This document shows positions 17,016-64,000 of a DNA stretch of 64,000 nucleotides, piece after piece. How positions within the stretch are numbered: position 1 is the stretch's first letter; each line of letters begins with the position of its first letter. The position numbers were made by a program, and so were the translations under genes. The DNA is from Zobellia barbeyronii. Its GTDB lineage: Bacteria; Bacteroidota; Bacteroidia; Flavobacteriales; Flavobacteriaceae. Location of the stretch: the NCBI RefSeq assembly GCF_018603515.1, contig NZ_JACATN010000004.1, forward strand, positions 620,001-684,000, read 5' to 3'. The notes under the pieces are model-generated. The model made no database searches. It was given only the letters and a program-made list of their open reading frames with translations, and was not told where the DNA came from.

Positions 17016-20000
17016 ATGTCCAAAAAAGTTTACATAACAATTTCATGTATCTTCTTCTTTCTCTGCACTTTTGCTCAAGAAAGCGACCTTGAGTTTTCTC
17101 AAAACTATACGATTTCTAATGGTTTGGCACACAATGGGGTCACCGCCATTCTTGAAGATTCAAGAGGCTACATTTGGGTAGGTACTTTTGAAGGTCTGAA
17201 CCGTTACGATGGATATGAATTTAAAACCATCAAAAACACCCTGAGCGATGCTGTTTTTGTAAGTAACCGTATTAGATCGCTCAAAGAAGATTCCAAAGGA
17301 AACATTTGGATCGGTACCGATGAGGGGATATCCTTGTACAACTACAACTTGGAGAAATTTATTAACATTTACTCTAATCAACTTGCCAAAAAAGGAGTTA
17401 AAGGACCTGTGGTTAGAGATATTATCATCAATGAAAAAGAAGGAATAATTCTCTGCGCTACAGAAAAGTATGGGATTTTAGTTTTTAACGATGACTATAC
17501 TTTGCAGGGAGAATATTCACCCACTGCCTTTTATAGTAACGGTGCCGTTGAATTTTATAAATCAATGATTATAGACAACAGCACTTATCTTTATGCTACG
17601 TCCGTAGGTCTGCTTTCTTTCAATCTAAAAAACCACCAATTCACTAAAATAGTTTCTAATGACATAAGCAACTGCCAGTCTATTATGCGTATTGATGAAA
17701 CTACGTTTCTGGTTACATTAAAAAAAGGGGCTGCCATTCTATCTTACTCTAAATTGGGTGACGGCTACGATTACCAAATAGTAAAAACCGATCTTCTACC
17801 CTCACAAAATTTCAATAGCTCAGGTTTTGACCACCATAATAATCTTTGGCTGGGAACATTGAATAAGGGTGCAATTCGCATTAATGATATTAAAAGCCTT
17901 ACTGAAGGTTCAGACATAGATTATTCAATATTTAAATTTCAAAATAAACAACTGCGCATTAGCTGTTTTCAAAGAACATCCAATAATAGATTTTGGGTTG
18001 GTTCGTATGATAAAGGTCTATTTAGATTTGACCTCAAAAAAAATCCATTTAAAGAATTTAAAGGTGAAAGTCCATTTGAATTTGGCGTAAGCGATAGGCA
18101 TTTAATTCAAATTTCGCCTTTAGATGACCAGAACGTATACCTGACAAAAAATCAAGGAGGGCTTGCACTTTTTAATACAAACGAAGGTAGATTTGAACCT
18201 CTACCTTTTACATTTGATGAAAACTATAAGGCTAGAATTTCTTCAGTTTATGTAGACTCTCATAAGAGAACATGGATGAAAGTGGCCAAAGTGGGTTACT
18301 TTAGGTTAAATCCTAATGAAGATAAACCCCAACTAATTGATACAAGTTCCTTACCCGAATTTTCGCAAGTAGAATCTTATAAGATTACAGAAGACAAAAA
18401 GGGCAACATTTGGCTAGGCACAAGAGTGGGTGTTTACAAATTATCTGTAGATGGGCAAGGCGATGTCACTAAAATAGAGGCACTAAACGATAATCCGTAT
18501 TTTGAAAATTTCAAAATGACCCTCGCTCGTTTTGTATATGTAGACCCGGAGCAAGATTTTATATGGGTGGGCACAGCAGAAGATGGTCTTTTTAGGATAT
18601 CAATTAAAGATGACCCTTTATTAAAAAATGCAAAAATCAAGCATCTTAGGAGAGATAAGAAAGAAGGTGGTTTACCCAATAACTTCGTTTCGGCCATAAC
18701 AAGAACACCAAACGGCAATCTATGGATAGGTACAGAAGGTGCCGGAATCTGTAAGGTAGAAAATAGCGAAAAAGAACCCGTATTCATTCCATTTACCGAA
18801 AAAGACGGTTTATCCAATAACGTAGTAAAAAGTATAAATGTAGACAACGCCGGCAACCTATGGATTGCTACCAATGTTGATTTAAACAAATTCTATCCTA
18901 AAGAAAAAAAGTTTCGGAAGTTCGGAAAAGAAGACGGTCTGCCATTTGAAGATTTCTGGTATGCATCAGCCTATTTAAACAATGGCACTTTAGTATTGGC
19001 AGGGCTTGAAGGCTTCTCCTATTTTATGCCCCACATCATTAAGGATACGGAAACCTTACCTCGCTTACATTTTGGTGACTTTAAGGTTTTCAATAAAACC
19101 GTACTCCCACAAGACACTTTAAACAAAAGAGTTTTACTTTCTGAACGGCTTCATAGTGGTCAGACCTTAAATCTAAAATACAACGAGAATGTTTTTACGG
19201 TTGAGGCTACTTCGCTACACTTTGCATCACCTGAAAATCATTTTTTAAAATACAGGTTGTTACCTATAGACCTGGATTGGCTGCAGACTACGTCTGACCA
19301 ACGAATGATAAACTATAATGGGCTGCAATCAGGAAAATATTCGCTTGAAGTGGCCGCATCAAATTCCATTGGTGAGTGGACTACAACCAAAACCCTAGAT
19401 ATTATTATTTCACCTCCATTTTGGAAAACCCCTTTGGCATATGTTATCTATGCCCTACTTACTATTTTGGTACTAGGTACTGTTCTATTCTATATCATAA
19501 AGAACCAGTCTTTGCGCTACAATATTCAATTAGAGCAAATAGAAAAAGATAAAGTAAAGGAAGTGAATGCAGCTAAACTTCGCTTTTTCGCTAATATATC
19601 TCATGAACTAAAAACACCGCTCAACCTGATATCTAGTCCGGTAAAGCTCTTATCTGAACGCTATAAGGATAATATTGATTCTCAAGAAAAACTGAATATT
19701 GTTGCTAGACAGTCTAAAAAAATAGGCCGCCTTATAGACCAGATTCATGATTTTGAGCGTGTGGATGCCAATTTAATGGAAATGGATTATTCCAGATTCT
19801 ATTTTAATGAATTTATAGAAACTATTGTACCTGATTTTCATTACTTGGCCTATAATAGTCATAAGAGATTACAAGTTATTTCTGACGACACCAACATTGT
19901 TGTATCTGCAGATCGCGATAAGCTGGAAAAAATATTCAACAACTTATTAAGTAATGCGTTTAAATATACGGGCGCCAATGATGTTATTACTATAAAGTTT

Positions 20001-21149
20001 ATTAGTGAAGATAAAGACCTTCTTGTATCCGTTACCGATACCGGAAGAGGAATTGATGATGATGACCTACCGCATATTTTTGAAAGGTTCTACCAGTCCC
20101 GAAAAAGGGAAAGTGTACATTCTACGGGCTCGGGTATAGGTCTTGCTTTTTCTAAAAAACTGGTAGAAATGCATTACGGTTATTTAGAAGCCTTTAGCGA
20201 AATAGGCGTGGGCACCACTATTAGTGTTCGTCTTCCTGTAGTTAAAAAGGAATCTATAGATGACCAAGCAACAAAGGAAAAAACACTAATAACTGCGGAA
20301 AATGAGGTTTCTGATGCTGAAACGACAATAGCAAAAACCGAAGTCTCTAAAATAAAGACAAGCGGAGACTACTCCGATAAGTTGATTTTTTATGTAGAAG
20401 ATGTACTAGATATGCGTCTTTATGTATCAAAAGTATTATCTAAATTTTTTAAAGTAAAAACTTTTACGAATGGTAGGGAATGCTTGGATGCTATGGAAGA
20501 CCAATGGCCAGATTTGGTTATAAGTGATATTCAAATGCCAATCATGAACGGTCTTGAACTTTGCAAACGTATTAAGGCTGATATAAAAACGAGTCATATT
20601 CCAGTAATTCTACTTACTGCGTTGGACGATATAGAAAATCAGATTCAAGGGATTAAAGACGGAGCTGATGCATACATCAAAAAACCATTTGACGCACGCC
20701 AATTGGTTGCACGTACCGAAGCTTTGTTGGAGAACAAAAAGCGACTGCGGGAGCGTTTCAAGATTGGTATTCCGCTTACGAAGGATAACAACCTTAATAT
20801 TAGAAATGATAATGCATTTCTTGAAAAGCTTTATCACCTTATGGCTCAAAATTTAGATAATCAAAATCTAGATATGGACCAATTTGCACGTCAACTTTAT
20901 CTTAATCGCACTCATTTCTACCAAAAAGTAAAGGCACTAACGGATAAAACTCCGTTTGAGATGCTAAAAATGTACCGTTTAAAAAAGGCGGCAGAACTGC
21001 TGGTAGAACAACCGGAATTATCCGTCAATGAAGTGTATACGATGACCGGTTTTAAAAGCCGAACGCATTTTAGCAAACTCTTTAAAGAAATGTATCATAC
21101 CACACCTGGTAAATACTCGGCTAAAAGTAAGGACAGTAATATTTCATAG
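17016..21149 (+). CDS. Hybrid two-component system regulator (HTCS)
   Basis: 1377 residues. A signal peptide (to about residue 20) is followed by a periplasmic sensor of Reg_prop beta-propeller repeats (recurrent GNIWIGT-like strands, about 25-690) and a Y_Y_Y domain (about 710-795), then one membrane helix near 808-828. Cytoplasmic parts are a HisKA domain (FFANISHELKTP, phospho-acceptor His863), a HATPase domain (NNLLSNAFKYT, DTGRGI, GSGIGLAFSKK), a receiver domain (phospho-acceptor Asp1171 in VISDIQMP, Lys in IKKPFD) and a C-terminal AraC-type HTH (about 1275-1370). HTCS proteins bind an oligosaccharide in the periplasm and switch on the adjacent PUL, here the genes from 21,353. Confidence 0.96.
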   Translation: MSKKVYITISCIFFFLCTFAQESDLEFSQNYTISNGLAHNGVTAILEDSRGYIWVGTFEGLNRYDGYEFKTIKNTLSDAVFVSNRIRSLKEDSKGNIWIGTDEGISLYNYNLEKFINIYSNQLAKKGVKGPVVRDIIINEKEGIILCATEKYGILVFNDDYTLQGEYSPTAFYSNGAVEFYKSMIIDNSTYLYATSVGLLSFNLKNHQFTKIVSNDISNCQSIMRIDETTFLVTLKKGAAILSYSKLGDGYDYQIVKTDLLPSQNFNSSGFDHHNNLWLGTLNKGAIRINDIKSLTEGSDIDYSIFKFQNKQLRISCFQRTSNNRFWVGSYDKGLFRFDLKKNPFKEFKGESPFEFGVSDRHLIQISPLDDQNVYLTKNQGGLALFNTNEGRFEPLPFTFDENYKARISSVYVDSHKRTWMKVAKVGYFRLNPNEDKPQLIDTSSLPEFSQVESYKITEDKKGNIWLGTRVGVYKLSVDGQGDVTKIEALNDNPYFENFKMTLARFVYVDPEQDFIWVGTAEDGLFRISIKDDPLLKNAKIKHLRRDKKEGGLPNNFVSAITRTPNGNLWIGTEGAGICKVENSEKEPVFIPFTEKDGLSNNVVKSINVDNAGNLWIATNVDLNKFYPKEKKFRKFGKEDGLPFEDFWYASAYLNNGTLVLAGLEGFSYFMPHIIKDTETLPRLHFGDFKVFNKTVLPQDTLNKRVLLSERLHSGQTLNLKYNENVFTVEATSLHFASPENHFLKYRLLPIDLDWLQTTSDQRMINYNGLQSGKYSLEVAASNSIGEWTTTKTLDIIISPPFWKTPLAYVIYALLTILVLGTVLFYIIKNQSLRYNIQLEQIEKDKVKEVNAAKLRFFANISHELKTPLNLISSPVKLLSERYKDNIDSQEKLNIVARQSKKIGRLIDQIHDFERVDANLMEMDYSRFYFNEFIETIVPDFHYLAYNSHKRLQVISDDTNIVVSADRDKLEKIFNNLLSNAFKYTGANDVITIKFISEDKDLLVSVTDTGRGIDDDDLPHIFERFYQSRKRESVHSTGSGIGLAFSKKLVEMHYGYLEAFSEIGVGTTISVRLPVVKKESIDDQATKEKTLITAENEVSDAETTIAKTEVSKIKTSGDYSDKLIFYVEDVLDMRLYVSKVLSKFFKVKTFTNGRECLDAMEDQWPDLVISDIQMPIMNGLELCKRIKADIKTSHIPVILLTALDDIENQIQGIKDGADAYIKKPFDARQLVARTEALLENKKRLRERFKIGIPLTKDNNLNIRNDNAFLEKLYHLMAQNLDNQNLDMDQFARQLYLNRTHFYQKVKALTDKTPFEMLKMYRLKKAAELLVEQPELSVNEVYTMTGFKSRTHFSKLFKEMYHTTPGKYSAKSKDSNIS

Positions 21150-21352: not shown

Positions 21353-22909
21353 ATGATAACATATACCATCCAAATGTTAGGCTTTATTCTCAAATTTAGT
21401 CTTGCCGGAGTACTTGCTCTAACAACAAACCCAGCGGACCAAAAGCCTATTGCAAAAGCAGAGCGTCCAAACATTCTTTTCTGTATTGCAGATGATGCCT
21501 CTATGAAAAGTTTTGGCGCCTATGGTGATACGTTTATCAACACACCGGCAATAGACAATTTGGCTAAAGAAGGCGTCGTGTTTCAAAATGCTTACAACGG
21601 GAACCCCAAATGCTCTCCAGCACGTGCCTGTATTTTAACGGGCAAGTATAGTTGGCAACTTAAGGAAGCGGCAGACCATAACGGTCGCTTTCCGCTAGAA
21701 TTCAAAACCTATCCGCAGTTATTGGCTAAAAAGGGCTATCGCGTAGGTTATACGGGTAAAGGATGGGGACCTGGAGTATATGACACCAAAGACAATCCTG
21801 CAGGCCCAGAGCACAATGCTATTAAGGTTAAACCACCATACAAAGGCATTTCCGATATTGATTATGCTGCAAATTTTGAGGTTTTCTTGAACGATAATCC
21901 TAAAGGCACTCCATTTTGTTTTTGGTTGGGAGCAAAAGAACCGCATCGATTTTATGAGTTAGATTCATGGAAAAAAGCAGGACGAAGGCTAGAAGAAGCT
22001 AATGTTCCTCCATTTTATCCAGATAATGAAGTTGTTCGTGGTGACTTATTGGACTATGCCAATGAAGTGGAATGGTTCGATACCCATGTGGGCAAAGCAA
22101 TTAAAGCTCTTGAGAAAAAAGGATTATTAAAAAACACCTTGGTAATTATAACTTCTGATCATGGTATGCCTTTCCCAAGGGTAAAAGGTCAGATTTATGA
22201 AGAAGGTTTTCATATACCCCTTATTGCGTATTGGAAAGGAAAGATTACTTCTGGGCGAACCGTGAGCGATTTCGTTAGCTTTTCTGATTTTGCCCCCACG
22301 TTTATGGAAGTAGCTGGAGAAATTCCTCATCAACAAATGACGGGAAGCAGTATCACAAAGCAACTTTTTACTGCAGAATCAGGTAGGATTGATGCGGCCC
22401 GAGACCATGTCCTTTTGGGTAAGGAACGTCACGATGTTGGCAGATCTAACGAAGATGGAATTGACCTTGCTTATCCCGTTAGGGCCATTAGAAATGATTC
22501 CCTCCTATATGTCCATAATATACAACCTGAAAGATGGCCTGTTGGCAATCCGGAATATGGCTTTATGAATACGGATGGTTCTCCTACAAAAAGTTACATC
22601 ACCTCCATAAATCCAGATGATGAAGAATACCATTTCTTTGAGATGAATTTTGATAAGAAACCGGAAAACGAACTTTACAACATTCAAAAGGACCCCCACT
22701 GCATCTATAATTTAGCTACTAAACCTGAATACAGTAGTAGCATTGCAAAGCTTCGTACCCAAATGGAAACGGAACTCATTGCGCAGGGCGATCCTAGAAC
22801 ATTAGGCAAAGGAGAGGTTTTTGATAACTATATCTATTATGGAAAGCGATTAGATTACAAAACGGGTAAACGTATAACACCTATTAAGTACACTAAAAAA
22901 ACGGAATAA
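21353..22909 (+). CDS. Exported S1 sulfatase, N-sulfoglucosamine-sulfohydrolase-like group
   Basis: 518 residues. The N-terminal hydrophobic segment is probably a signal or anchor. S1-family landmarks are the metal-binding DD (47-48), the formylglycine site CSPAR (Cys87), TGKGWG in place of the usual GKWH, and SDHGMPFPR followed by the EEGFHIP substrate-side motif. The family hydrolyses sulfate esters (or sulfamates) with Ca and needs post-translational Cys-to-formylglycine conversion. SDHGMPF and the compact C-terminus place it nearer heparan-N-sulfatase-type sequences than arylsulfatase A. It is first in the PUL run; its stop abuts the next ATG with no gap. Confidence 0.93.
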   Translation: MITYTIQMLGFILKFSLAGVLALTTNPADQKPIAKAERPNILFCIADDASMKSFGAYGDTFINTPAIDNLAKEGVVFQNAYNGNPKCSPARACILTGKYSWQLKEAADHNGRFPLEFKTYPQLLAKKGYRVGYTGKGWGPGVYDTKDNPAGPEHNAIKVKPPYKGISDIDYAANFEVFLNDNPKGTPFCFWLGAKEPHRFYELDSWKKAGRRLEEANVPPFYPDNEVVRGDLLDYANEVEWFDTHVGKAIKALEKKGLLKNTLVIITSDHGMPFPRVKGQIYEEGFHIPLIAYWKGKITSGRTVSDFVSFSDFAPTFMEVAGEIPHQQMTGSSITKQLFTAESGRIDAARDHVLLGKERHDVGRSNEDGIDLAYPVRAIRNDSLLYVHNIQPERWPVGNPEYGFMNTDGSPTKSYITSINPDDEEYHFFEMNFDKKPENELYNIQKDPHCIYNLATKPEYSSSIAKLRTQMETELIAQGDPRTLGKGEVFDNYIYYGKRLDYKTGKRITPIKYTKKTE

Positions 22910-24427
22910 ATGCTAGGTTCAAAATTTCCAAAAAAATGTTCTGTATACTTTCTTACTTTTTTGATGAGTCCCTTATTCCACTGGGCACAAGAAAAGCAGC
23001 CCAATATCATTTTTGTTCTTGTGGACGACCTCGGCTATGCCGATGTTGGTTTTAACGGTTCAACATATTTTGAGACACCGGCATTAGATGCTTTGGCCAA
23101 AGAGAGCTTGGTATTTAACAATGCCTACATGTATCCCACATGCTCACCTTCCAGAGCTGCTCTTTTTACTGGAAAACAATCTTTCCGAACTGGTGTTTAC
23201 ACTGTTCCCGTACTAGAGAGAGGTGATGATCAAGAGAACATATTCTCTAGGTGGACGGTTGGTAAAGAACATCCTATTTATGCCGAACCTCTGGCAACTG
23301 CTGGTTATAAATCCATTCACTTAGGCAAATGGCATATTGTGGGACCATATCCAGAAAAAGAACTGGCAATGGACTGGCCCATCCAACAAAAATTGAATCA
23401 ACCTCAACCCGGAGATTTCACTTGGGTAGAAAACCATAAGACGCCAGCCGTAAAACAGTATTACCCGGAAGGGAGGGGCTTTATTAAAAATGTTGGCGGC
23501 ACGTTTCGCGGAGACCCAGCTTTAGAAGAAGGTGGTTACAAAAGCGAACGTGGAGGATATCGCGCACCGTTTAGCAATCCATTCATTTCACCTAAACCTG
23601 ATGACGAATGGCTTACGGACCGACTTGCCAGCGACGCTATTGAGTTTATGGATGACCATAAAAATGCCCCGTTCTTGGTCAACCTTCATTTCTATGAGGT
23701 ACATCGTCCTATAAAAAATAGAAACGACGAGCTCTTTGATAAATACATGGAAAAACCAGGTGACCCCATAACAGGACAAGGCATAGGTGAAAACAAAGAA
23801 CGCATGGCCAGTTACGCTACCATGGTACAGTCTATGGACGAGAATATTGGTAGAATCATGACATACCTCAAAAAGAATAATTTAGAAGAAAATACATTGA
23901 TTATCATTACTTCTGATAATGGCTATCATGGTATTGCTTCTGAGAATTTAAACTTAAGAGGCTCCAAGGGCGAAATTTATGAAGGCGGAATAAAAGTTCC
24001 TGCTTTAATCCATTGGTCCGGCAAGGTAAAAGCCCGAAGAACGAAGATTCCAATTTCCGTTACCGATTATTTTCCAACATTAATGGATGCAGCCAACATT
24101 GATTACAAAGGGCAGCTTGATGGAAAATCGCTTATTCCCCTATTTCAAAAAGACAAAAACAGTTTTAAAGAACGTCCCTTATTCTGGCATTTGGCCAGCC
24201 AATACAAAAACGGCACCTGTTCCGTAATCCGAAAAGGAGATTATAAACTAATCCAATTTTTAGCTGATGGAAAACTGGAACTTTACAACTTAAAGAGCGA
24301 CCCAAAGGAGACTAAGAACTTGGCCCAAGAGGATTCAAAAACAGCTCAAAACCTACTTGACGAACTAGTAACTTGGCGAACAATGAATGAAGTACCTCTG
24401 CCTCCAAATTCCATGCTCTCAAAATAG
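22910..24427 (+). CDS. Exported S1 sulfatase, arylsulfatase A-like
   Basis: 505 residues. Signal-like N-terminus (SVYFLTFLMSPLFHWAQ), DD at 39-40, CSPSR with Cys78, GKWHIVGP, HFYEVHRP, SDNGYHG, and KGEIYEGGIKVP near the sugar-side loop. All catalytic landmarks of a formylglycine sulfatase are present. The start codon directly follows the upstream stop, so translation is coupled. Which sulfate on the galactan is removed cannot be told from sequence. Confidence 0.94.
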   Translation: MLGSKFPKKCSVYFLTFLMSPLFHWAQEKQPNIIFVLVDDLGYADVGFNGSTYFETPALDALAKESLVFNNAYMYPTCSPSRAALFTGKQSFRTGVYTVPVLERGDDQENIFSRWTVGKEHPIYAEPLATAGYKSIHLGKWHIVGPYPEKELAMDWPIQQKLNQPQPGDFTWVENHKTPAVKQYYPEGRGFIKNVGGTFRGDPALEEGGYKSERGGYRAPFSNPFISPKPDDEWLTDRLASDAIEFMDDHKNAPFLVNLHFYEVHRPIKNRNDELFDKYMEKPGDPITGQGIGENKERMASYATMVQSMDENIGRIMTYLKKNNLEENTLIIITSDNGYHGIASENLNLRGSKGEIYEGGIKVPALIHWSGKVKARRTKIPISVTDYFPTLMDAANIDYKGQLDGKSLIPLFQKDKNSFKERPLFWHLASQYKNGTCSVIRKGDYKLIQFLADGKLELYNLKSDPKETKNLAQEDSKTAQNLLDELVTWRTMNEVPLPPNSMLSK

Positions 24428-24455
24428 TCTAAAACCAATAAATCAGCAATATTCA

Positions 24456-26024
24456 ATGTGCTACTCAAAAAAATTTCTGGTTAATATCATTCTAATTCTT
24501 TTAAGCCTACCTAATTCTTGGGCCCAGAAAAAAGAGGTTCAAAAACCAAATATTATTCTTATTTATGCGGATGACATGGGGCGCGGCATGCTCGGCACTT
24601 ACGGACAAAACATGCTAACTACTCCTAATATTGACAAGCTGGCTTCAGAAGGCTTGCAGTTTGAAAGAGCTTATGGCGCTATGTATTGTGCTCCGGCAAG
24701 GGCCAGCCTATTAACCGGAATGCACGACTGCCACGGAGGTGATGCCATGACCATTGTAAAAGCTGGTATTTATAAGGAATTGGATAACGGACTTACCCTA
24801 GACGAAATCAAGGCTAAAATACACGAGGTGGCACTTCCTGCCGAAAAGGACGAAGTATTCTTGGGTGAAATTGCCCAAAAAGCAGGATATACCACAGGAC
24901 AGTTTGGAAAATTAGAATGGGGGTTCGCTACTACTCCTGAACGTATGGAACGCCATGGTTGGGACCATCATTTTGGGTATTATGACCATCTCCGCTGTCA
25001 TGGATTTTATCCTCCGTTTCTTTTTGAAGATGGTAAAAAAGTAGACATCCCAGGGAATACACATGTAGATTGTGCCAAAACCACGGAATACGACTCTCCC
25101 GAAAACTTTAAGAATCGGTGGAATATGGAAGGAAAAGCCGTCTATTCCGAGCATATTATCATGAACAAAATGTTGGGTTTTATGGATGCCAATCATCCTA
25201 AAAAAACAGACAAACCTTTCTTTCTCTATTTTCCCACTCAGTTGCCGCACGGTCCTACTATGGTTCCTGAGGTACATCCTGAATTACAGAACAACCCAAA
25301 CTTAACGCAATGGGAAAAAGAATATGCTTCTATGGTAAAAATGTTGGATGACGATGTGGGTAGAATTTATGCCAAACTAGAAGAAATGGGAATCTTGGAT
25401 AATACTATCATCGTTTTTACTTCGGATAATGGACATGAAATCTATTATCCGGAAAAAGGGCGTACCTCAAAAAACAACGTCAATGTAAAAGGAGAAGAAT
25501 TTGATAATATCACTACTCGCTTTAACAGTAGGGTTGCAGGAGATATTTTTGATGGAAACGACGGTATGTCCGGAAAAAAGCGTGATAATTGGGAAGGTGG
25601 TGTACGTGTTCCCCTTTTCTGGTATTGGAAAAACAAAATAAAGGCTGGCACGGTAAGCGAACAAATGGTCAGTAATTATGATTTCCTAAATACCCTTGCC
25701 GAGATTGTAGGAACTCCACAGAGAAAGGAAAAAGATGGCATTTCTTATGCAAAAACTCTTTTTGGAGGCAAGCCCAAATTGCGCAACTATACTGTTTATT
25801 CTTCAAAAATGGGTCCCGCTTTGGTCACCCAAGAAGGTTGGAAGCTCAGATACTATCTTAAGGAAGATATTTTTCAACTCTATTATTTACCTGATGATTA
25901 TGGAGAGGTAAATGATTTAGCCAAAGGGCATCCTGAAAAAACCGAAAAACTGAAAGCGATACTTTTTAAGGAATGCAGTGAAAACTGGGAAAATGGTATT
26001 GGCCCGATTCAAAAGAAAGTCTAA
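24456..26024 (+). CDS. Exported S1 sulfatase, CAPAR type
   Basis: 522 residues from the ATG at 24456; a longer frame from 24387 would overlap the previous gene and place the signal peptide inside the protein. Signal peptide MCYSKKFLVNIILILLSLPNSWAQ-type, DD at 39-40, CAPAR with Cys78, GKLEWGF instead of GKWH, and TSDNGHE with a long inserted loop before NWEGGVRVP. A 47-base stretch (25119-25165, coding WNMEGKAVYSEHIIMN) recurs with two silent differences in the pseudogene at 26,980, so a relative of this gene was once nearby. Confidence 0.93.
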   Translation: MCYSKKFLVNIILILLSLPNSWAQKKEVQKPNIILIYADDMGRGMLGTYGQNMLTTPNIDKLASEGLQFERAYGAMYCAPARASLLTGMHDCHGGDAMTIVKAGIYKELDNGLTLDEIKAKIHEVALPAEKDEVFLGEIAQKAGYTTGQFGKLEWGFATTPERMERHGWDHHFGYYDHLRCHGFYPPFLFEDGKKVDIPGNTHVDCAKTTEYDSPENFKNRWNMEGKAVYSEHIIMNKMLGFMDANHPKKTDKPFFLYFPTQLPHGPTMVPEVHPELQNNPNLTQWEKEYASMVKMLDDDVGRIYAKLEEMGILDNTIIVFTSDNGHEIYYPEKGRTSKNNVNVKGEEFDNITTRFNSRVAGDIFDGNDGMSGKKRDNWEGGVRVPLFWYWKNKIKAGTVSEQMVSNYDFLNTLAEIVGTPQRKEKDGISYAKTLFGGKPKLRNYTVYSSKMGPALVTQEGWKLRYYLKEDIFQLYYLPDDYGEVNDLAKGHPEKTEKLKAILFKECSENWENGIGPIQKKV

Positions 26025-26040: not shown

Positions 26041-26793
26041 ATGGTTAAAAAAATTAAATTAAGTCACGCCCTACTCCTTTTATCTACATGTATACTTATA
26101 TCATGCGCTAGCGCCAAACTTAGCTCACCAAAGGAAAACCCTGCAGCGCAATCCGTTCAACTAGAAGGTGAATGGTGGAACCAACGACATGAGACTATTA
26201 AAAGTCGACTTAAATCTGACCCTGAACTGATTTTAGTGGGTAACTCTATTTTTCACACTTTGGAAGAAGAGGACCGAAAAGAGGTTTGGACCAAGTACCT
26301 AGACCAGTACCGCACCGTAGATATGGGCATTAGTGGTGATCGCACCGAGAATGTTATATGGCGTATTGAAAATGGAACCTTAGAAGGTATAAATCCCAAA
26401 GTTGCAGTTATACTCATAGGTACAAATAACACGGACGGCAACCATTATTTAAACATAAGCACCCCAGAAGAACTGGCCGATGGTATTTACAAAATATGCA
26501 GCCTGTTAAATCAAAAACTACCGAATACCGAAATTCTCCTCATGGGTATTCTTCCTTATGGTTATAAACCCAATCACAGAGATAATATCAACAAGGCAAC
26601 GAACAAATTGCTTTCTTCCTTCCCAAAAAAGAATTCAAAAATCCATTATATAGACATCAGCTCAGAATATGTTGATGAAAATGGAAAGGTTAACAAAGAA
26701 CTTATGCCCGATTACCTGCACCCCAATGCAGAAGGCCATTTGCTAATGTTCAAAGCATTTGATGCCGATATCCAAAAATTGATTACAGAATAG
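26041..26793 (+). CDS. SGNH/GDSL-type esterase lipoprotein
   Basis: 250 residues. Lipoprotein signal with lipobox LISC (Cys22). SGNH blocks: LVGNSIF (nucleophile Ser69, GNS instead of GDS), VDMGISGDRTENV (block II Gly), ILIGTNN (block III Asn) and DYLHP with Asp224 and His227. The layout matches the PAF-acetylhydrolase-like SGNH branch that includes carbohydrate acetyl-esterases. It starts 16 bases after the preceding sulfatase. A role in removing O-acetyl or similar esters from the algal glycan is likely but inferred. Confidence 0.87.
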   Translation: MVKKIKLSHALLLLSTCILISCASAKLSSPKENPAAQSVQLEGEWWNQRHETIKSRLKSDPELILVGNSIFHTLEEEDRKEVWTKYLDQYRTVDMGISGDRTENVIWRIENGTLEGINPKVAVILIGTNNTDGNHYLNISTPEELADGIYKICSLLNQKLPNTEILLMGILPYGYKPNHRDNINKATNKLLSSFPKKNSKIHYIDISSEYVDENGKVNKELMPDYLHPNAEGHLLMFKAFDADIQKLITE

Positions 26794-30663: not shown

Positions 30664-30665
30664 TC

Positions 30666-31229: not shown

Positions 31230-31278
31230 ATAGGAATCCAACCAACAAAACCATTTTACCTAACACAAAGTACGTGCA

Positions 31279-49040: not shown

Positions 49041-49049
49041 ATATTGAAA

Positions 49050-56470: not shown

Positions 56471-57943
56471 ATGAAACAAATAATAACGACTGGTATTTAT
56501 TTATTATTTACCTGTTTGACTTTTGCCCAAGAACAACCAAATATTATCTGGCTCATGGCCGAAGATATGAGTATTGACCTTGAGTGCTACGGCATGAAAG
56601 GTGTCAAAACTCCCAATTTGAACAAGATGGCAAAGGAAGGCGTTAAATTTGAAAACTGCTTTGTAACCAACCCTATTTGCTCGCCTAGTCGTTCTGCTAT
56701 GCTAACGGGAACACATCAAGTTAAAATAAATGCGCATCACCACCGTAGCAATAGAGATGTGCCGTTGGATGAACAGTTTAAACCTTTTACTTATTGGTTA
56801 AGAGAAGCCGGTTATACTACTATTTTAGGACATCACGGTGTAATGGGGCAAGGTCGTAAAATAGATGCTAATTTTAAACATGAACCTATAGGTCCTTGGG
56901 ATGGAAAGACCCAATTTGGGATTTTTGATAAGTACGATACATTTGAGAAAGAAGACCAACCATTTTTTGCGCAAATTCAATTAGTTGCTAGTCACAGAGG
57001 TGATTGGTGGGACGAGGTTCGCGAAAACTCAAAACACCCTGTAGACCCTGCAGATGTGGAATTGCCTGAATTTATGGCTGATGACCCAGTAATTCGTTTG
57101 GATTGGGCTAAATATCTTGACCAGATAGAGTTTTTAGACAATGAAGTAGGAATGATTTTTCAAGAATTGGAAGATAAAGGAATGGCCGATAATACCGTTG
57201 TTATTTTTATTGGCGATAATGGCCGGTGCAACATACGTGGCAAAGGATATCTTCAAGACCCAGGATTACATATTCCTTTTATTGTTTACTATCCTAAGGG
57301 TTTAAAAGCAGGACAGATTAGAAAAGATGTGGTTTCCGCTACTGATATTACCGCAACGGTATTGGACTTCGCCAATGTAGAAGTTCCTGAATACATGACC
57401 GGAAAACCTGTATTCGAAAAGGGTTTTAAACGTGAGTTTGTCTACGGAGCACGTGACCTTTGGGACGAGATAGAAGAAAAATCCCGCGCCATTACTTCGG
57501 GAGAGTGGAAATACATTCGCAATGACAAGCCCGAGGTTCCTTTTGATGCAGAACAAGCTTATTTAGAGTTTTATCGCCCTGCGGTGCACCGAATGCGTGC
57601 CTTAAAGGCCGAAGGCAAACTTAATGAAAGTCAGAAACTGTTCTTCGCACCCAATAAAGACAAAGAAGAATTATATGATCTTAAAAACGATCCACAAGAA
57701 CTGCACAATTTAGCAGAGAATCCAAAGTACCTAGATGTACTTCAGAAAATGCGAGCCAAGACCTTGGCCTATGATAAAGAAATGAAACCAGTAAATACCA
57801 TATACCATCCTGAGCATGCTATTTCTGTAGATGCCCTAAAATGGGTAAAAGAAGAAAGACCAGAAGAATACCAGAGGATGGTAGACGGTGAAGAAATAGG
57901 CTTCAAAAAGGCCGTTCAAGGGTATAAGGAAAGTCTTAAATAA
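56471..57943 (+). CDS. Exported S1 sulfatase, N-sulfoglucosamine-sulfohydrolase-like
   Basis: 490 residues. Signal peptide to about residue 20 (LLFTCLTFAQ), CSPSR with Cys70, GDNGRCNIRGKGY and DPGLHIP. The metal pair is ED (31-32). The usual GKWH position reads GHHGVMG, so the lysine that normally contacts sulfate is absent there. It is a paralogue of the CSTSR enzyme at 27,318: VELPxxxADxPxIRxDW and the GxCxIRGK block are shared. It is the last gene before a terminator. Confidence 0.92.
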   Translation: MKQIITTGIYLLFTCLTFAQEQPNIIWLMAEDMSIDLECYGMKGVKTPNLNKMAKEGVKFENCFVTNPICSPSRSAMLTGTHQVKINAHHHRSNRDVPLDEQFKPFTYWLREAGYTTILGHHGVMGQGRKIDANFKHEPIGPWDGKTQFGIFDKYDTFEKEDQPFFAQIQLVASHRGDWWDEVRENSKHPVDPADVELPEFMADDPVIRLDWAKYLDQIEFLDNEVGMIFQELEDKGMADNTVVIFIGDNGRCNIRGKGYLQDPGLHIPFIVYYPKGLKAGQIRKDVVSATDITATVLDFANVEVPEYMTGKPVFEKGFKREFVYGARDLWDEIEEKSRAITSGEWKYIRNDKPEVPFDAEQAYLEFYRPAVHRMRALKAEGKLNESQKLFFAPNKDKEELYDLKNDPQELHNLAENPKYLDVLQKMRAKTLAYDKEMKPVNTIYHPEHAISVDALKWVKEERPEEYQRMVDGEEIGFKKAVQGYKESLK

Positions 57944-58023: not shown

Positions 58024-60756
58024 CTACCCTTTTCTTGGTCTGCTATTAAGCTTATGCATATAACTAACTATAAAATAACGCCCCAAACTCTCAGACGTAG
58101 TTTCTTCAAAATAGTTGGTAGTACTACGCCTATAAATGTCTATGTTCTTATCAAGCAAATCAATAAACAATAACTTTACAACATGGCTATTCTGTTTTGA
58201 GAAGGCATACGATACTGTAGCATTCCATAAGGGGATGTTTTCACTTGAAGCAAAAGCATTATCGGTATAAATAAAATAGTCAAACTGGGTATTGAAATTC
58301 ACTTTCTTAGATAAATCACAATCCAACATTGAAAAATACTGCTGTTTGGTATACTTCCGGTCCAAATCTCGCTCTATTGAAAAAGAGGTGTTATTTACGC
58401 TATAAGTTGCCCCTGCTTTTAAATCTATGACGCTTTTATTATTGTTCTCTAGCGTTGCGCTGATTAGAAAATCTTTTGAAGTAACTTCATTAAGCTGAAA
58501 ATTGATAATCGCATTATTTGTATTGAAGAAATTTCGGTTTCGAACAGAGTAGCGTAGCCCCAAACTTTTTATTTTCTGACTAAAACCTATTGTAGTATTC
58601 AGTCTACGTTTGATTCCGTTATTCTGATAGCTCAAGGTTCTAACATAATCCTCATCCACATCAACACTTTTGATGATGGCGTCTTTTGTATATTGAAATT
58701 GTACTCGTGTATTAAAACTAAAAGACGATTTAAAATCGTGAACAACGGCAGATAAAGTCAACGCATCTATCTTTTCCGAAACCAAATTTGGATTCCCCTT
58801 TCGGATGGAAAACGGATTTAAATCATTAACCACCGTAGAACTCTCATTTGGTCGTGGCGTACGAATGTTCTTTTTATAACTTAATCTATACTTACGCCCT
58901 CTTTTAGGAATGTATTGTACCGTAGCCATAGGATTAACGAATAACCTATCCGTTACCGTAACTGCTTCATCTACAACACCAAAAGAACGTACAATATCTT
59001 GCAGTTCCATTGCTGCATACGTATTAATTTTCCCTGCGGTATAACTATGGGCCAATCTGGTTTGATAATTATTTTCGTTGTGGTCGTAATCGTACTTTAA
59101 AATCTCTTCTTTATTCTTTGCGGCTACAGTTATCTTATTCTGATAGACATTTTCCTTATCAATTTTATTTCCCATGTATGACTCCAACTTCACATAATGG
59201 TTGCCTCCTAAGGGTTCAGTATATTTGAAATTAAAATTGACTGCCGCAGTATTCAGTTTTTGATCACGGATGGTATTCAGCTCTTTCACAGATTCTTTTG
59301 GAGTATTTATCCGCCTAGTGATTAAAGTATTTTGATCGTTCTTCATAGTAGACCGATTAAAATTAGTTTTCAGTCCAGTAGCTAGACTTCTACCCTTTTT
59401 TCTCAACTTTTGATAAAAGTTAATACCCAAATTGGCTCTTTTTCTATCTCTATCTACAGTAGATAGGTTGTCATTCTTAGTACTTAGTTCTACCTCTTTA
59501 AAATAGCGCCCCATGCGATTAGAGTAGCTATTAATAGCATCAGACATTAATTGTCCTTTAATAATTAAACTATTGTTAGGGTTGGACTTGTTCTTGTAAT
59601 CTAAATTAAGATTGTGATCATTCTTAGTGTTCACATATTCATTTTCGGCTACATAATCAAAGTTATTGGCATTGGAAAAAGTGATGCGTTTTGACACAGA
59701 AGAACCATCGTTCTTAGAATAGTTATAGAAATAATCTCCGTTTAAAGATTCCTTTTCTTTAAACTCGTGCCCCACATTTACCCCTGCCACACCTGTATTT
59801 AAATACCCACTTAGGCTTTTCGTTTTTTGTGCGGAGTTCTGCTCTTCTTCCTCATCGTCTCCATCACCATCAACACCATCTGCATTCTTTAAAAAATCTT
59901 GAATGTTTGAACCCGTTATATTGATGTTATTAATTTTACCAATGACAGAAAACTGAGTCTTAGAAGAGAATTTATTATAATTAAGATTACCAAAATACCG
60001 GTTATCCAATCCGCCTCCTGCAGAAACCTTTCCAAAACCATTGTTCTTTCGGGATTTCTTCAACGTAAAATTAATGACCACTTCCTTGTTTCCGTCCGCC
60101 ACACCGGTAAGCTCAGACTCATCACTCTTTTTATCTATAATCTCTACATTGGCAATGGCATCTGCAGATAAGTTTTTTAGTACTATGGATGGATCGCCTC
60201 CAAAAAACTCTTTTCCATCGATCATAATTTTGGTTACCTCGTTACCTTGAGCATTCACCTTCCCATCAGAATCTATTTCCAACCCTGGAATTTTATTTAA
60301 CAATACCTCTAAATTATCATCTGGATCCACTTTAAAAGAATTGGTATTAAAAGCTATAGTATCCTGTTTGATTTGTACAGGCACCACTGCTGTTAATGTA
60401 ACCCCTTCCAATTCATAGGTATCCTCCACTAGTGTAAGGTTTCCAAACGTAAGAGCTTCACCCGTGCAGGTAATGTTCTTGTACAAGGAGATATATCCTA
60501 AGGAAGAAATATTCAAAATATAATCTCCTTTCTGAGCTTCAGATATTTTAAACTCACCATTTACATCAGTAATCGTATAATCTACATACGTAGAATCCTT
60601 AACACTTAGTAAAACCACGGCAACTGCTTCCAGAGGCTCCTGGCCCTCAGAGAGTACTTTCCCAGAAATAGTTTCCGAAGATTGTGCCTGTGTAGATGTA
60701 AAAAATATAAAGAAGAGGAAAAGCAGAAAACCATTTCCTTTTTGAAAATTCATCAT
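58024..60756 (-). CDS. Outer-membrane beta-barrel protein (TonB-receptor-like, OMP_b-brl family)
   Basis: 910 residues. Signal peptide to about residue 24 (FLLFLFFIFFTSTQAQ), CarboxypepD_reg-like domain (ISGKVLSEGQEPLEAVAVVLL, DVNGEFKIS), and a degenerate plug (LLNKIPGLEIDSDGKVNAQG, VTKIMIDGKEFFGGDP). A long barrel follows, with an acidic Asp/Glu insertion (GDGDDEEEEQ). It lacks a SusD partner. Family members are common in Bacteroidota with mostly unknown ligands. It is the only minus-strand gene right of 12,274, so it is a separate unit inserted between sulfatases and may not be part of the PUL. Confidence 0.88.
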   Translation of the reverse strand: MMNFQKGNGFLLFLFFIFFTSTQAQSSETISGKVLSEGQEPLEAVAVVLLSVKDSTYVDYTITDVNGEFKISEAQKGDYILNISSLGYISLYKNITCTGEALTFGNLTLVEDTYELEGVTLTAVVPVQIKQDTIAFNTNSFKVDPDDNLEVLLNKIPGLEIDSDGKVNAQGNEVTKIMIDGKEFFGGDPSIVLKNLSADAIANVEIIDKKSDESELTGVADGNKEVVINFTLKKSRKNNGFGKVSAGGGLDNRYFGNLNYNKFSSKTQFSVIGKINNINITGSNIQDFLKNADGVDGDGDDEEEEQNSAQKTKSLSGYLNTGVAGVNVGHEFKEKESLNGDYFYNYSKNDGSSVSKRITFSNANNFDYVAENEYVNTKNDHNLNLDYKNKSNPNNSLIIKGQLMSDAINSYSNRMGRYFKEVELSTKNDNLSTVDRDRKRANLGINFYQKLRKKGRSLATGLKTNFNRSTMKNDQNTLITRRINTPKESVKELNTIRDQKLNTAAVNFNFKYTEPLGGNHYVKLESYMGNKIDKENVYQNKITVAAKNKEEILKYDYDHNENNYQTRLAHSYTAGKINTYAAMELQDIVRSFGVVDEAVTVTDRLFVNPMATVQYIPKRGRKYRLSYKKNIRTPRPNESSTVVNDLNPFSIRKGNPNLVSEKIDALTLSAVVHDFKSSFSFNTRVQFQYTKDAIIKSVDVDEDYVRTLSYQNNGIKRRLNTTIGFSQKIKSLGLRYSVRNRNFFNTNNAIINFQLNEVTSKDFLISATLENNNKSVIDLKAGATYSVNNTSFSIERDLDRKYTKQQYFSMLDCDLSKKVNFNTQFDYFIYTDNAFASSENIPLWNATVSYAFSKQNSHVVKLLFIDLLDKNIDIYRRSTTNYFEETTSESLGRYFIVSYMHKLNSRPRKG

Positions 60757-61054: not shown

Positions 61055-62533
61055 ATGAGATTACGTTTTCACCCTTACTTAACATTCTTTTTTACCGCTT
61101 CTATGCTTTTAAGCTTGGGGTCCTGCAAAGAAGAAGCGAAAATTGTAAACGAAACAGCTTTACCAGAAAAAGAAAAGCAACCCAATATCATTTATATTTT
61201 AGCCGATGATCTTGGTTATGGCGACTTAAGTTCATACGGACAAGAAAAATTTGAAACTCCCCGTATTGATAAACTTGCTTCTAGAGGTATAAAATTCACA
61301 CAACATTACAGTGGGGCTCCAGTTTGTGCCCCAGCACGTTCATCTTTAATGACAGGACAACATACAGGCCACACACCTATTAGGGGAAACAAAGAGCTTG
61401 AAGGAGAAGGGCAAACACCATTACCCGCAAATTCCGTAACCATTGCCGAGCTAATGAAAAAAGCGGGCTATATCACAGGAGCTTTTGGAAAATGGGGATT
61501 AGGTTTTATTGGAACTGAGGGCGACCCCGTTGCTCAAGGTTTTGATGAGTTTTATGGGTACAATTGCCAGCGTATGGCTCACAGGTACTATCCTTCTCAC
61601 TTATGGCACAATGAAGAAAAGGTTTTACTTGATGGTAACGACTGGACAAAGACCGAAACTTACGCTCCAGATAAAATTCAGGAAGCAACTTTGGCTTTTA
61701 TCGAAGCTAATAAAGAAAAGCCATTTTTTGCTTATGTTCCTTTTGTTCTACCTCATGCAGAACTGATTTCACCCAAGGACTCCATATTTGACAAGTTTAA
61801 GGACCAATTTCAAGAAACACCTTATACGACAGAGAATGACTTTACATCGGACTACGGCCCTGATATTGTTCAAATGGAATATGCTTCACAGCTAAAGCCA
61901 CATGCCGCCTTTGCCTCTATGGTGTACCGTATGGATGTTTATGTTGGACAGATTTTAGATAAACTAGATGAACTGGGCATTACGGACAACACCATTGTCA
62001 TGTTTGCAAGTGATAACGGCCCTCATGCCGAAGGCGGTGCTGACCCTGAATTCTTTAATAGCGCAGGAGGCTTAAGAGGAATTAAAAGAGACCTGTATGA
62101 AGGTGGTGTCCGTTCACCTTTCCTGGTAGTCTGGCCCGATAAAATTAAAGCTAGATCAACTTCTGACCATGTTTCTGCATTTTGGGATGTTATGCCAACA
62201 TTAGGTGAAATTACCAATATAGATGTTCCGGCAACTAGCGATGGTATTTCTTTTCTACCAACACTCTTAGGCAAAGAAGGTCAAAAACAACATGAATATC
62301 TGTACTGGGAATTTCCTATTCAAAAAGGACGTAAAGCAATTAGAAAAGGGGATTGGAAAGGTGTCATTTACAATTTCAACAAAAACCCACAAGGCCAATT
62401 TGAACTTTATAATTTGGCTAATGACCCGTCTGAAACCAACAATGTTGCCAATGAACATCCAGAAATAGAAAAAGAAATAAGGCAAATCATGGAAAGCGCA
62501 AGTGAAAAATCTGAACTTTTCCCTTTCGAGTAG
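61055..62533 (+). CDS. S1 sulfatase lipoprotein, CAPAR type
   Basis: 492 residues. Lipobox LGSC (Cys24), DD at 51-52, CAPAR with Cys91, GKWGLGFIG, LPHAEL, SDNGPHAEGG and YEGGVRSP. HYSGAPVCAPARSSLMTGQHTGH is the style of arylsulfatases common in marine Bacteroidota, related to the N-domain of the PA14-fused enzyme at 52,954. It starts a new plus-strand run after the inverted barrel gene, followed 45 bases later by another sulfatase. Confidence 0.94.
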   Translation: MRLRFHPYLTFFFTASMLLSLGSCKEEAKIVNETALPEKEKQPNIIYILADDLGYGDLSSYGQEKFETPRIDKLASRGIKFTQHYSGAPVCAPARSSLMTGQHTGHTPIRGNKELEGEGQTPLPANSVTIAELMKKAGYITGAFGKWGLGFIGTEGDPVAQGFDEFYGYNCQRMAHRYYPSHLWHNEEKVLLDGNDWTKTETYAPDKIQEATLAFIEANKEKPFFAYVPFVLPHAELISPKDSIFDKFKDQFQETPYTTENDFTSDYGPDIVQMEYASQLKPHAAFASMVYRMDVYVGQILDKLDELGITDNTIVMFASDNGPHAEGGADPEFFNSAGGLRGIKRDLYEGGVRSPFLVVWPDKIKARSTSDHVSAFWDVMPTLGEITNIDVPATSDGISFLPTLLGKEGQKQHEYLYWEFPIQKGRKAIRKGDWKGVIYNFNKNPQGQFELYNLANDPSETNNVANEHPEIEKEIRQIMESASEKSELFPFE

Positions 62534-62578
62534 CTATTAATTTTTAAACCAACCAATAATTAAACCATTGCATACCCT

Positions 62579-64000
62579 ATGAAAACCATTTATTTTCTTC
62601 TAAGCCTCTTCTTATCGGTTTCCTGTTACGCCCAAAAAGCGAACAAAAGCAACTCAGAAAAACGCCCGAACGTAATCCTGATCATGGTTGATGACTTAGG
62701 GTACGAAGGAATTGGCAGTTATGGAGGCACATCTTATGACACTCCAAATATTGACAAGCTTGCCGCAACTGGCATGCAGTTCAATCAGGCCTATGCACAG
62801 CCGTTATGTACTCCCACTCGCGTAAAACTTATGACTGGGCAGTACAATTTTAGGAATTGGGAAGCTTTTGGAGTTTTAAATCCAAAACAAAAAACGTTTG
62901 GCCATATCATGCAAGACGCTGGTTACGCTACCTGTATGGTGGGTAAATGGCAACTACAGAGTTATGACCCACCGGGATATCCTGGAGGCGAACATAGAAG
63001 AGGTATTGGTATGAAAGTAGAGGATGCTGGTTTTGATGAATACAGCATGTTTCACGCGTTTCATACAGAGGATAAAGGCTCCCGTTTTGCCAATCCAACT
63101 ATTTATCAAAATGGAGAGTTTCTAAAAAGAACTGATGGCAAATACGGTCCAGACATTTTCTCTCAATATTTAAACGATTTTGTTGACCGTCAAGCGGATA
63201 AACCGTTTTTCGTGTATTACCCTATGGCATTGACACATGGTCCGTTTAACCCAACACCGAACAGCGGCGATTGGAAACATGCCGAAAAAAGATTGAATGA
63301 CGAAACCATATACTTCAAGGATATGGTGGAATATTTAGATAAAATTATTGGAGATATTGTAGCTAATCTTGAAAAGAAAGGACTTCGTGAAGACACACTT
63401 TTGATGTTGTATTCCGATAATGGTACACACCAAACCATTTTCTCCAAGATGGGAGATCGGACGGTTCAAGGTGGTAAAGGCCTAACGACCGAAGCTGGTA
63501 TTAAAGTTCCTTTTATTGCCAACTGGCCTAGTCATATTAAAGAAGGTACTGCATCAAACGAGTTCATTGATGCTATAGATTTTATGCCCACTATTCTTGA
63601 AGCTACAAACACTCCAACTCCTTCCGGTTTTGAACCAGATGGGGAAAGTTTTCTGCCAGTTTTGAAAGGGAAGCCTGTAGAACGTAGAGACTGGGTATTT
63701 ATGAGTTACGACCCTAAACCGGGTTGGGACAAAAAACAATTCGCACCAGCAGAATTCGTACTAAATGAAAACTATAAACTTTACGGAGACGGTAGATTCT
63801 ATAACACCAAAAAAGATGTTCTGGAAAACGATTCGTTGCCATCTAACAAACTATCTTCTAAAGAAAAACAGCTCAAGAAAATATTTAAAACGGTTTTGGA
63901 TTCGTTGAGAAAATATCCAACGTATGGCTGGATTGAACGTTTGGCACCTGAGTTTGATTCGTTGGTATCAAAACATGCCCGTATAGAATTAGTTGCAGAA
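62579..64000 (+). CDS. S1 sulfatase, CTPTR type, cut by the right edge
   Basis: 474 codons are open from the ATG at 62579 to the last base, so the stop lies outside. Signal peptide to about residue 18 (LFLSVSCYAQ, also a possible lipobox), DD at 38-39, CTPTR with Cys77, GKWQLQS, ALTHGPF, SDNGTHQ and EAGIKVP. All landmarks of a formylglycine sulfatase are present. By length, most of the protein is included. Confidence 0.92.
   Translation, partial: MKTIYFLLSLFLSVSCYAQKANKSNSEKRPNVILIMVDDLGYEGIGSYGGTSYDTPNIDKLAATGMQFNQAYAQPLCTPTRVKLMTGQYNFRNWEAFGVLNPKQKTFGHIMQDAGYATCMVGKWQLQSYDPPGYPGGEHRRGIGMKVEDAGFDEYSMFHAFHTEDKGSRFANPTIYQNGEFLKRTDGKYGPDIFSQYLNDFVDRQADKPFFVYYPMALTHGPFNPTPNSGDWKHAEKRLNDETIYFKDMVEYLDKIIGDIVANLEKKGLREDTLLMLYSDNGTHQTIFSKMGDRTVQGGKGLTTEAGIKVPFIANWPSHIKEGTASNEFIDAIDFMPTILEATNTPTPSGFEPDGESFLPVLKGKPVERRDWVFMSYDPKPGWDKKQFAPAEFVLNENYKLYGDGRFYNTKKDVLENDSLPSNKLSSKEKQLKKIFKTVLDSLRKYPTYGWIERLAPEFDSLVSKHARIELVAE

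Follow-up and report, generated by a model that had tools for sequence, protein, structure and literature searches.

A sulfatase-rich GH110 locus of Zobellia barbeyronii as the probable exo-acting part of a system for lambda-type carrageenan use

Which galactan is degraded by a polysaccharide utilisation locus (PUL) that carries eleven sulfatases and two GH110 enzymes, and what opens the chain for it? The question is raised by a 64,000-nucleotide stretch of the 4.98-Mb Zobellia barbeyronii genome, positions 620001–684000 of contig NZ_JACATN010000004.1 (C32), hereafter the window. In its positions 17016–64000 a sequence-only reading had seen eleven S1 sulfatases, two GH110 enzymes, two SusCD pairs and a hybrid two-component regulator (HTCS), and Pfam and PDB matches bear out all of these. 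The same reading had found no endo-carrageenase, agarase or beta-galactosidase, had taken lambda-type carrageenan for the best fit, and had proposed that the organism might use oligosaccharides released elsewhere or by others, or might have an unrecognised endo-enzyme outside the window. We conclude that the locus is quite probably the exo-acting part of a Zobellia system for using lambda-type carrageenan, with the endo-acting GH150 enzyme encoded on another contig, C11.

Within the PUL the lack of an endo-enzyme holds: none of its 13 non-sulfatase open reading frames (ORFs) of at least 100 residues, with overlapping antisense ORFs set aside, matches an endo-carrageenase, agarase or beta-galactosidase in Pfam. 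For the genome it does not hold. The query was a protein of Pseudoalteromonas carrageenovora KCTC 22325 (L004:23920-26616; plasmid DNA of this strain was read as L004, L006 and L013), taken as the GH150B counterpart by its place beside GH110B, as in Pseudoalteromonas distincta U2A. It gave a single match in the genome, C11:73949-76561, at 51% identity over residues 13–899 of 899, and the gene at C11:73949-76702 carries the propeller, middle and C-terminal Pfam domains of lambda-carrageenase (CGLA), all above their cut-offs. An endo-enzyme outside the window was thus rightly foreseen, but it belongs to a recognised family. Its cluster has a SusCD pair on either side, a Y_Y_Y regulator, an S1_15 sulfatase (L009:17239-18774; best PDB match 9bau, S1_15B, 506 bits), a second sulfatase, a TIM-barrel protein and a DUF1080–esterase fusion. 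The S1_15 type, the 6-O-sulfatase of the lambda-carrageenan PUL, is accordingly found on C11, and the window holds only a distant relative, S1e. GH110 on C32 and GH150 on C11 are unlinked: even with the two contigs end to end, at least some 227 kb would separate them.

The missing beta-galactosidase has a similar history: absent within the window, present beyond it. Inspection of the sequence to the right, which had been advised as a check for further carbohydrate-active enzymes, showed a GH2 gene at window-equivalent positions 67739–70576, starting 3.7 kb beyond the edge, together with a twelfth S1 sulfatase, and a second GH2 lies at C31:38465-40864. The latter is 54% identical over residues 8–811 of 815 to the GH2 of P. 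carrageenovora (L004), and a cascade-like GH2 of this kind was found in all nine Zobellia genomes compared. The window-adjacent GH2 was rejected as the cascade enzyme, as it is 22–28% identical over partial length (22% over 418 residues) and the closer relative is on C31. Relatives of the main cascade enzyme types of U2A are all in the genome, over three contigs (C32, C11 and C31). A cassette of TIM-barrel, DUF1080 and S1_15 genes (L009:14208-18774) lies in the C11 GH150 cluster here and inside the GH110 locus in Z. uliginosa C3R17, 75–76% identical; it ties the two loci together and suggests transfer between GH110 and GH150 loci.

Both GH110 enzymes have two GLAA-B beta-barrel domains, and their best PDB matches are GH110 crystal structures. 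For the first, GH110A, the best match is 9beh (805 bits), an entry of a study in which GH110A frees galactose-6-sulfate after S1_8B has acted (PMC12549532). Its D327 (catalytic), R463 and T501 correspond to D324, R460 and T498 of the solved enzyme; across the GH110A clade the Arg is invariant (87 of 87), and the third site is Thr in 53, Ser in 33 and Trp in 1. Judged from these sequences, the window GH110A is an ortholog of the solved lambda-carrageenan exo-6-sulfo-alpha-galactosidase, with the catalytic Asp and the predicted 6-sulfate pocket kept. It is 90% identical to its counterpart in Zobellia amurskyensis KMM 3526 and 84% to that in Z. uliginosa C3R17. The second GH110 has P495 where GH110A has Arg and GH110B, the enzyme for desulfated galactose, has Glu (E480), and a gap at the T498/D518 site, a pattern shared by all 16 sequences of its clade. 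The branch of that clade has a Shimodaira–Hasegawa-like approximate likelihood ratio (SH-aLRT) of 100 in a tree of 40 of 110 aligned sequences; the 110 were those of 585–700 residues among 124 distinct GH110 ORFs, and the tree took 17 of the 87 GH110A sequences, 14 of those 17 drawn at random. Neither solved enzyme gives a basis for predicting the −1 specificity of this second GH110.

The 2-O-sulfatase type of the lambda-carrageenan PUL, S1_8, is represented in the window by three candidates, S1f, S1i and S1d, assigned by nearest structure or by BLAST (sulfatases are lettered along the locus). S1f, directly upstream of GH110A, has SGSH (4mhx, 309 bits) as its best PDB match, followed by S1_8A (149 bits), and is 66% identical to the sulfatase beside the Flammeovirga GH110A. 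In 42 of 79 named loci, drawn from the best 80 of 94 relatives, a sulfatase of the S1f type is found no further than 10 kb from GH110A. S1i is closest to 9bb9 (S1_8A, 296 bits) and 49% identical to Flammeovirga L005:28662, and S1d is 40% identical to a sulfatase of P. carrageenovora (L006:18412-19953) which, from its length, we take to be the counterpart of S1_8A.

The two enzyme families also travel together. Among 397 Flavobacteriaceae genomes, sampled evenly from a larger group and scored for GH110A at 57% identity or more, 21 have GH110A and 13 have GH150, and all 13 are among the 21 (hypergeometric 2.5e-19, uncorrected for kinship). In eight of the 13, GH150 and GH110A share a contig and are no more than 50 kb apart, which is not so in the other five (G000, G388, G051, G072 and G237); in the named loci GH150 lies within 10 kb in 31 of 79. 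Here G000 is the window strain, G388 Z. uliginosa C3R17, G001 Z. uliginosa DSM 2061, G397 Z. amurskyensis, G129 Kriegella aquimaris, G289 Pricia antarctica and G184 Kriegella sp. EG-1; G398 we take to be the genome of Z. galactanivorans Dsij. With the GH110A 6-sulfate pocket, the S1_8-type sulfatases, the GH150 co-occurrence and a GH150 in this very genome, lambda-type carrageenan, the earlier best fit, is the best-supported substrate, though not in pure form, given the S1_16- and S1_20-like sulfatases described below.

The genes of the locus are, in window positions:

17016–21149, plus strand: HTCS hybrid two-component regulator (Reg_prop, Y_Y_Y, HisKA, HATPase, Response_reg, HTH_18)
21353–22909, plus: S1 sulfatase S1a (PF00884; CSPAR; in 8 of 8 other Zobellia loci)
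22910–24427, plus: S1 sulfatase S1b (PF00884; CSPSR)
24387–26024, plus: S1 sulfatase S1c (PF00884; CAPAR)
26041–26793, plus: GDSL-type esterase, predicted lipoprotein (PF13472; lipobox-like LISC)
26807–27199, plus: deletion scar (tblastn with intact G388 proteins)
27318–28904, plus: S1 sulfatase S1d, S1_8-like, predicted lipoprotein (BLAST to P. carrageenovora sulfatase; CSTSR)
28951–30663, plus: GMC oxidoreductase, putative LacA-like large subunit of a sugar dehydrogenase (PF00732/PF05199)
30666–31229, plus: Gluconate_2-dh3 small subunit, Tat-like N-terminus (PF13618; RR close to the N-terminus)
31279–32199, plus: xylose-isomerase-like TIM barrel, Tat-like N-terminus (PF01261; RR close to the N-terminus; in 7 of 8 other Zobellia loci)
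32437–35625, plus: SusC-like TonB-dependent transporter 1
35647–37185, plus: SusD-like lipoprotein 1 (lipobox)
37345–38871, plus: S1 sulfatase S1e, distantly S1_15-like (PDB matches)
38897–42277, plus: FG-GAP/ASPIC-UnbV repeat lipoprotein of 1126 residues, possible surface protein (PF13517, PF07593; lipobox-like LASC)
42696–45815, plus: SusC-like transporter 2
45832–47370, plus: SusD-like lipoprotein 2 (lipobox)
47559–49040, plus: S1 sulfatase S1f, S1_8/SGSH type, predicted lipoprotein (PDB matches)
49044–50876, plus: GH110A, ortholog of the exo-6-sulfo-alpha-1,3-galactosidase (9beh; residues as above)
51038–52921, plus: second GH110, separate clade, Pro at the 6-sulfate position (GH110 structures, alignment, tree)
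52954–55071, plus: S1 sulfatase S1g, 705 residues, extra C-terminal part (PF00884)
55087–56427, plus: S1 sulfatase S1h, S1_16-like, galactose-4-sulfate type (9fo1)
56471–57943, plus: S1 sulfatase S1i, S1_8-like, 2-O-sulfatase type (9bb9)
58024–60756, minus: outer-membrane beta-barrel protein (PF14905; in 7 of 8 other Zobellia loci)
61055–62533, plus: S1 sulfatase S1j, S1_20-like, galactose-3-sulfate type, predicted lipoprotein (7ana, 7an1)
62579–64000, plus: S1 sulfatase S1k, N-terminal part of a sulfatase–SMP-30/gluconolactonase fusion (Pfam)

Absent from the earlier reading were the GMC/Gluconate_2-dh3/TIM-barrel trio (28951–32199), the GDSL esterase, the FG-GAP/ASPIC lipoprotein and the scar. 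The lipoprotein accompanies SusC1/D1 and was not seen in two loci with SusC2/D2 only (G398 and G001). The S1k fusion crosses the window edge (62579–64852 in window-extended coordinates) and is present in all eight other Zobellia loci; the twelfth sulfatase, S1l, follows at window-equivalent 64860–66365. Between S1l and the GH2 gene lies a 383-residue protein without a Pfam match (window-equivalent 66381–67532), found in six of the eight other Zobellia loci at the coverage used. To the left, a nucleotidyltransferase and an APH-family kinase (14861–16814) stand just upstream of the HTCS, and several other Zobellia regions have ORFs of about the same size ahead of the HTCS; the pair possibly salvages released galactose via a sugar-1-phosphate. 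Further left (5161–13496) are a glycerate kinase, a sodium/solute symporter, an MGH1-like mannosyl/glucosylglycerate hydrolase, a TonB receptor and a LacI regulator. This group looks like a mannosylglycerate utilisation cluster beside the galactan PUL; mannosylglycerate is the red-algal digeneaside. The hydrolase gene is at the same place in G399, 98% identical.

All eleven sulfatases of the window lie above the Pfam cut-off (C32 641467 to 682666), 27318–28904 giving two matches; genome-wide there are 65 sulfatase-domain matches, some of which are two pieces of one gene. The eleven and S1l all carry a Cys-type maturation motif, CSTSR in S1d and C-x-P/A-x-R in the other 11. The two loci together have 14 sulfatases, for six of which the subfamily was read from the nearest solved structure (S1e, S1f, S1h, S1i, S1j and the C11 S1_15) and for S1d and S1l from BLAST against P. 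carrageenovora; S1a, S1b, S1c, S1g, S1k and S1m carry no subfamily assignment. S1e matches 6s20, 7oze, 9s7x and 9bas (S1_15A) at 253–261 bits each. S1h is closest to 9fo1, a kappa-carrageenan sulfatase of S1_16 (266 bits); this nearest enzyme, a 4-O-sulfatase of kappa-oligosaccharides, is inactive on lambda-carrageenan according to the accessible part of its report (PMC11760155). S1j is closest to 7ana (422 bits) and 7an1 (390 bits), which are BT1622 and BT1636, S1_20 galactose-3-sulfatases in the excerpt available (PMC10154620).

Across nine Zobellia genomes, GH110A and the GH110/S1 locus are present in all and GH150 in two. Every locus contains the HTCS, S1a, the GMC oxidoreductase, Gluconate_2-dh3, S1f, both GH110 genes, S1g, S1h, S1i, the S1k–SMP-30 fusion and S1l. 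The right-end GH2 is seen in five of the nine, though in two of these the stretch ends within the gene, and the stretch of G400 is too short to tell. Of the nine stretches read, only that of the window combines SusC1/D1 with SusC2/D2. Six loci hold together an orphan 570-residue protein (no match in Pfam, NCBIfam or PDB), a 479-residue protein with weak matches to alpha-galactosidases, and a GH29; G401 has the 479-residue and GH29 genes and only the final 22 residues of the 570-residue protein, and none of the three was seen in the locus of G399. The window strain keeps remnants of the first two. Its scar consists of residues 1–51 of the 570-residue protein (26807–26959), a stray 22-residue piece matching the S1c gene at 73% (26965–27030) and residues 422–479 of the 479-residue protein (27026–27199); compared with G388, the net loss is 2764 bp. 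With only the ends of two lost genes left, the window shows a reduced version of the Zobellia locus. The 570-residue protein was considered as a missing lambda-carrageenase, a candidacy weakened by relatives of 55–58% identity in G006, G189, G162 and G380, four genomes for which the threshold used gave no GH110 match, by its not being intact in the loci of G399 and G401, which have no GH150, and by its lack of database matches. A paralog (44%) lies at C31:59006-60307 of the window strain, in another region rich in sulfatases, and a DUF1080 match is close by (C31:61997-62686).

From these genes we infer the following order of steps, localisation and sensing. The GH150 endo-lambda-carrageenase from the separate C11 PUL would cut the chain, and sulfated neo-oligosaccharides would enter via SusCD. 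The S1_8-type enzymes S1f, S1i and S1d would take the 2-sulfate off the terminal alpha-galactose, whereupon GH110A would remove the exposed galactose-6-sulfate; the second GH110 may handle a terminal alpha-galactose with other decorations. Another 2-O-desulfation step and a beta-galactosidase would take off the beta-galactose, and the cycle would repeat, with S1_15 and S1_8 enzymes finishing the monosaccharide sulfates and the HTCS sensing the oligosaccharides. The S1_16- and S1_20-like sulfatases probably serve to deal with the 4- and 3-sulfate groups of natural mixed galactans.

Several findings weigh against a locus for lambda-carrageenan and nothing else. S1h (in nine of nine Zobellia loci) and S1j (in eight of nine) are closest to enzymes for galactose-4- and 3-sulfate, units outside the standard lambda repeat, so the real substrate may be broader. 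GH29, in seven of nine Zobellia loci, is not explained by lambda-carrageenan. BLAST against the P. carrageenovora locus identified no S1_8C ortholog. The second GH110 is 34% identical to P. carrageenovora GH110B, with a sister position at SH-aLRT 82, below the mark of 95, and is not a clear GH110B ortholog. A GH150 match is missing from eight of the 21 GH110A genomes, two of them Zobellia, and from seven of nine Zobellia in the genus search.

Much of this would suit a locus that targets a mixed galactan with Gal-alpha-1,3 galactose-6-sulfate units (mu/nu precursors, lambda/kappa hybrids or DL-hybrid galactans), with lambda as only one polymer accepted, a possibility that we take seriously without preferring it. 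The GH110A pocket recognises galactose-6-sulfate, which mu- and nu-carrageenan units also contain; the 4- and 3-sulfate types and GH29 speak for it too. So does sulfatase number, 12 here versus 5 in the U2A lambda locus (PMC12549532). In the same study, however, GH150 is described as exclusively lambda-carrageenan-active (PMC12549532), and in our sample it occurs only in GH110A genomes. Nor does this genome have any match at 1e-20 to the GH16 of P. carrageenovora (L007:46646-47836), presumably its kappa-carrageenase, for which G398 and G001 give matches at 45%; kappa-carrageenan was rejected as the target on this ground. The S1_16- and S1_20-like sulfatases suggest a mixed natural galactan, and that reading overlaps with lambda-type carrageenan as the substrate rather than excluding it.

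A second alternative, which we consider doubtful, concerns how the beta-galactose is removed. The 3-OH of the internal beta-galactose of lambda-carrageenan would be blocked by the alpha-1,3 linkage and freed by GH110A; GMC/Gluconate_2-dh3, which we take to correspond to LacA and LacC, might oxidise it on the terminal beta-galactose, and DUF1080 or TIM-barrel proteins might cleave the bond, beside or instead of a beta-galactosidase. The LacA/LacC-like pair is in all nine Zobellia loci, hinting at an oxidative side route, and the GMC protein has the highest median identity of the genes found in all (96.7% to the eight other loci; GH110A, 85.3%). Among the matches listed from the 397 genomes, its seven closest relatives (at least 83%) all come from GH110A genomes and lie no more than 21 kb from GH110A, and a DUF1080 fusion occurs in the C11 GH150 cluster and in the GH110 loci of G388 and G184. 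A precedent is lactose 3-dehydrogenation: the available part of Price et al. 2022 (PMC9007349) gives fitness evidence on lactose use for LacABC and a DUF1080 protein, proposes the latter as a 3-ketolactose hydrolase, and mentions relatives of the route in Bacteroidetes. On the other side, the cascade-like GH2 in nine of nine Zobellia means that the beta-galactosidase step is not missing, the DUF1080 fusion is in just one of the eight other Zobellia loci, and homologs of GMC at a greater distance are widespread, being found at 1e-180 in 220 of the 397 genomes. Only 3 of 79 named loci have a GMC gene no further than 10 kb from GH110A, a count low by design since the window GMC itself is 18 kb away. 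The idea that the module replaces GH150 was dropped as a general rule, since the two occur together in G388 and, on a single contig, in G334. Less likely again is the wider proposal of a partly oxidative exo-cascade by which Zobellia and its near relatives would feed on lambda-type carrageenan, SMP-30 and esterase domains handling the oxidised products; if true, such oxidative chemistry, or one of the locus genes conserved in GH150-less Zobellia (the 570- or 479-residue protein or the core set), would also explain lambda use without GH150.

That the strain is a scavenger of oligosaccharides made by others, as the sequence-only reading had proposed, would fit a PUL without an endo-enzyme and a genus with GH110A in nine of nine and a GH150 match missing in seven, but is very improbable and was set aside, since a full-length GH150 stands beside its own SusCD genes here, so that such supply is not needed, and since Z. 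galactanivorans, said to lack GH150, is reported in the available parts of two papers to use lambda-carrageenan (PMC6262041), as sole carbon source (Ficko-Blean et al. 2017, PMC5698469).

An exo-acting locus served by a GH150 elsewhere in the genome, the reading that we prefer, places a GH150 lambda-carrageenase in Zobellia, where a five-genome comparison, in its accessible part, had none (PMC6950322). It also offers a natural comparison, two Zobellia with and seven without a GH150 match, all nine with the GH110/S1 locus. From Z. galactanivorans, Gobet et al. 2018 proposed an unidentified lambda-carrageenase family, according to the portion available (PMC6262041); what opens lambda-carrageenan in this GH150-less species is now testable with a short gene list. 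More generally, where a pathway is divided among several loci, it is unsafe to judge a PUL by what its neighbourhood lacks. In the literature on GH110 or GH150 with carrageenan and on lambda-carrageenan in Zobellia, as far as its accessible parts go, we found no report of GH150 in two Zobellia, the unlinked layout, the scar or the oxidoreductase core, and no paper joining GMC oxidoreductase with polysaccharide utilization and sulfatase, or carrageenan with gluconate 2-dehydrogenase. The 2.8-kb deletion scar and the LacA/LacC-like pair in nine of nine loci are new here.

Of the known systems, the LacABC/DUF1080 one shares the GMC and Gluconate_2-dh3 pair and a DUF1080 protein, as described in the excerpt available (PMC9007349); here, however, these are embedded in a sulfated-galactan PUL, without a lactose context. 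The GH110/GH150 locus on plasmid p1 of Flammeovirga kamogawensis (L005) has relatives of S1f (66%), S1j (66%), GH110A (60%), the second GH110 (56%), S1i (49%) and the HTCS (40% over full length), but its GH150 and S1_15 relatives lie about 8–10 kb from GH110A, and the 41.8 kb read gave no BLAST match to the GMC trio. With the lambda-carrageenan PUL of P. distincta U2A and PUL 8 of P. carrageenovora (PMC12549532, PMC6262041) the window genome shares GH110A (59.6%), the sulfatase directly before it, and GH150, S1_15 and GH2 relatives. As opposed to those loci, the Zobellia genes are spread over three contigs, with more than twice as many sulfatases, a second GH110 of another clade and SusCD transport.

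The closest system is PUL 23 of Z. galactanivorans, which has GH110 and S1_8 sulfatases like the lambda PUL and was assigned to lambda-carrageenan in the available part of Gobet et al. 2018 (PMC6262041). Read in G398, it runs in the same order (HTCS, S1a–c, GDSL, S1d, GMC, Gluconate_2-dh3, TIM barrel, S1e, SusC2/D2, S1f, both GH110, S1g–l), with matched genes 76–94% identical to the window. The window is without the 570-residue, 479-residue and GH29 genes and the extra SusCD after the HTCS, whereas it has SusC1/D1 and the FG-GAP gene, and its genome a GH150, all of which G398 is without. The window locus is an ortholog of PUL 23 and probably a lambda-carrageenan-type exo-locus with its endo-enzyme elsewhere.

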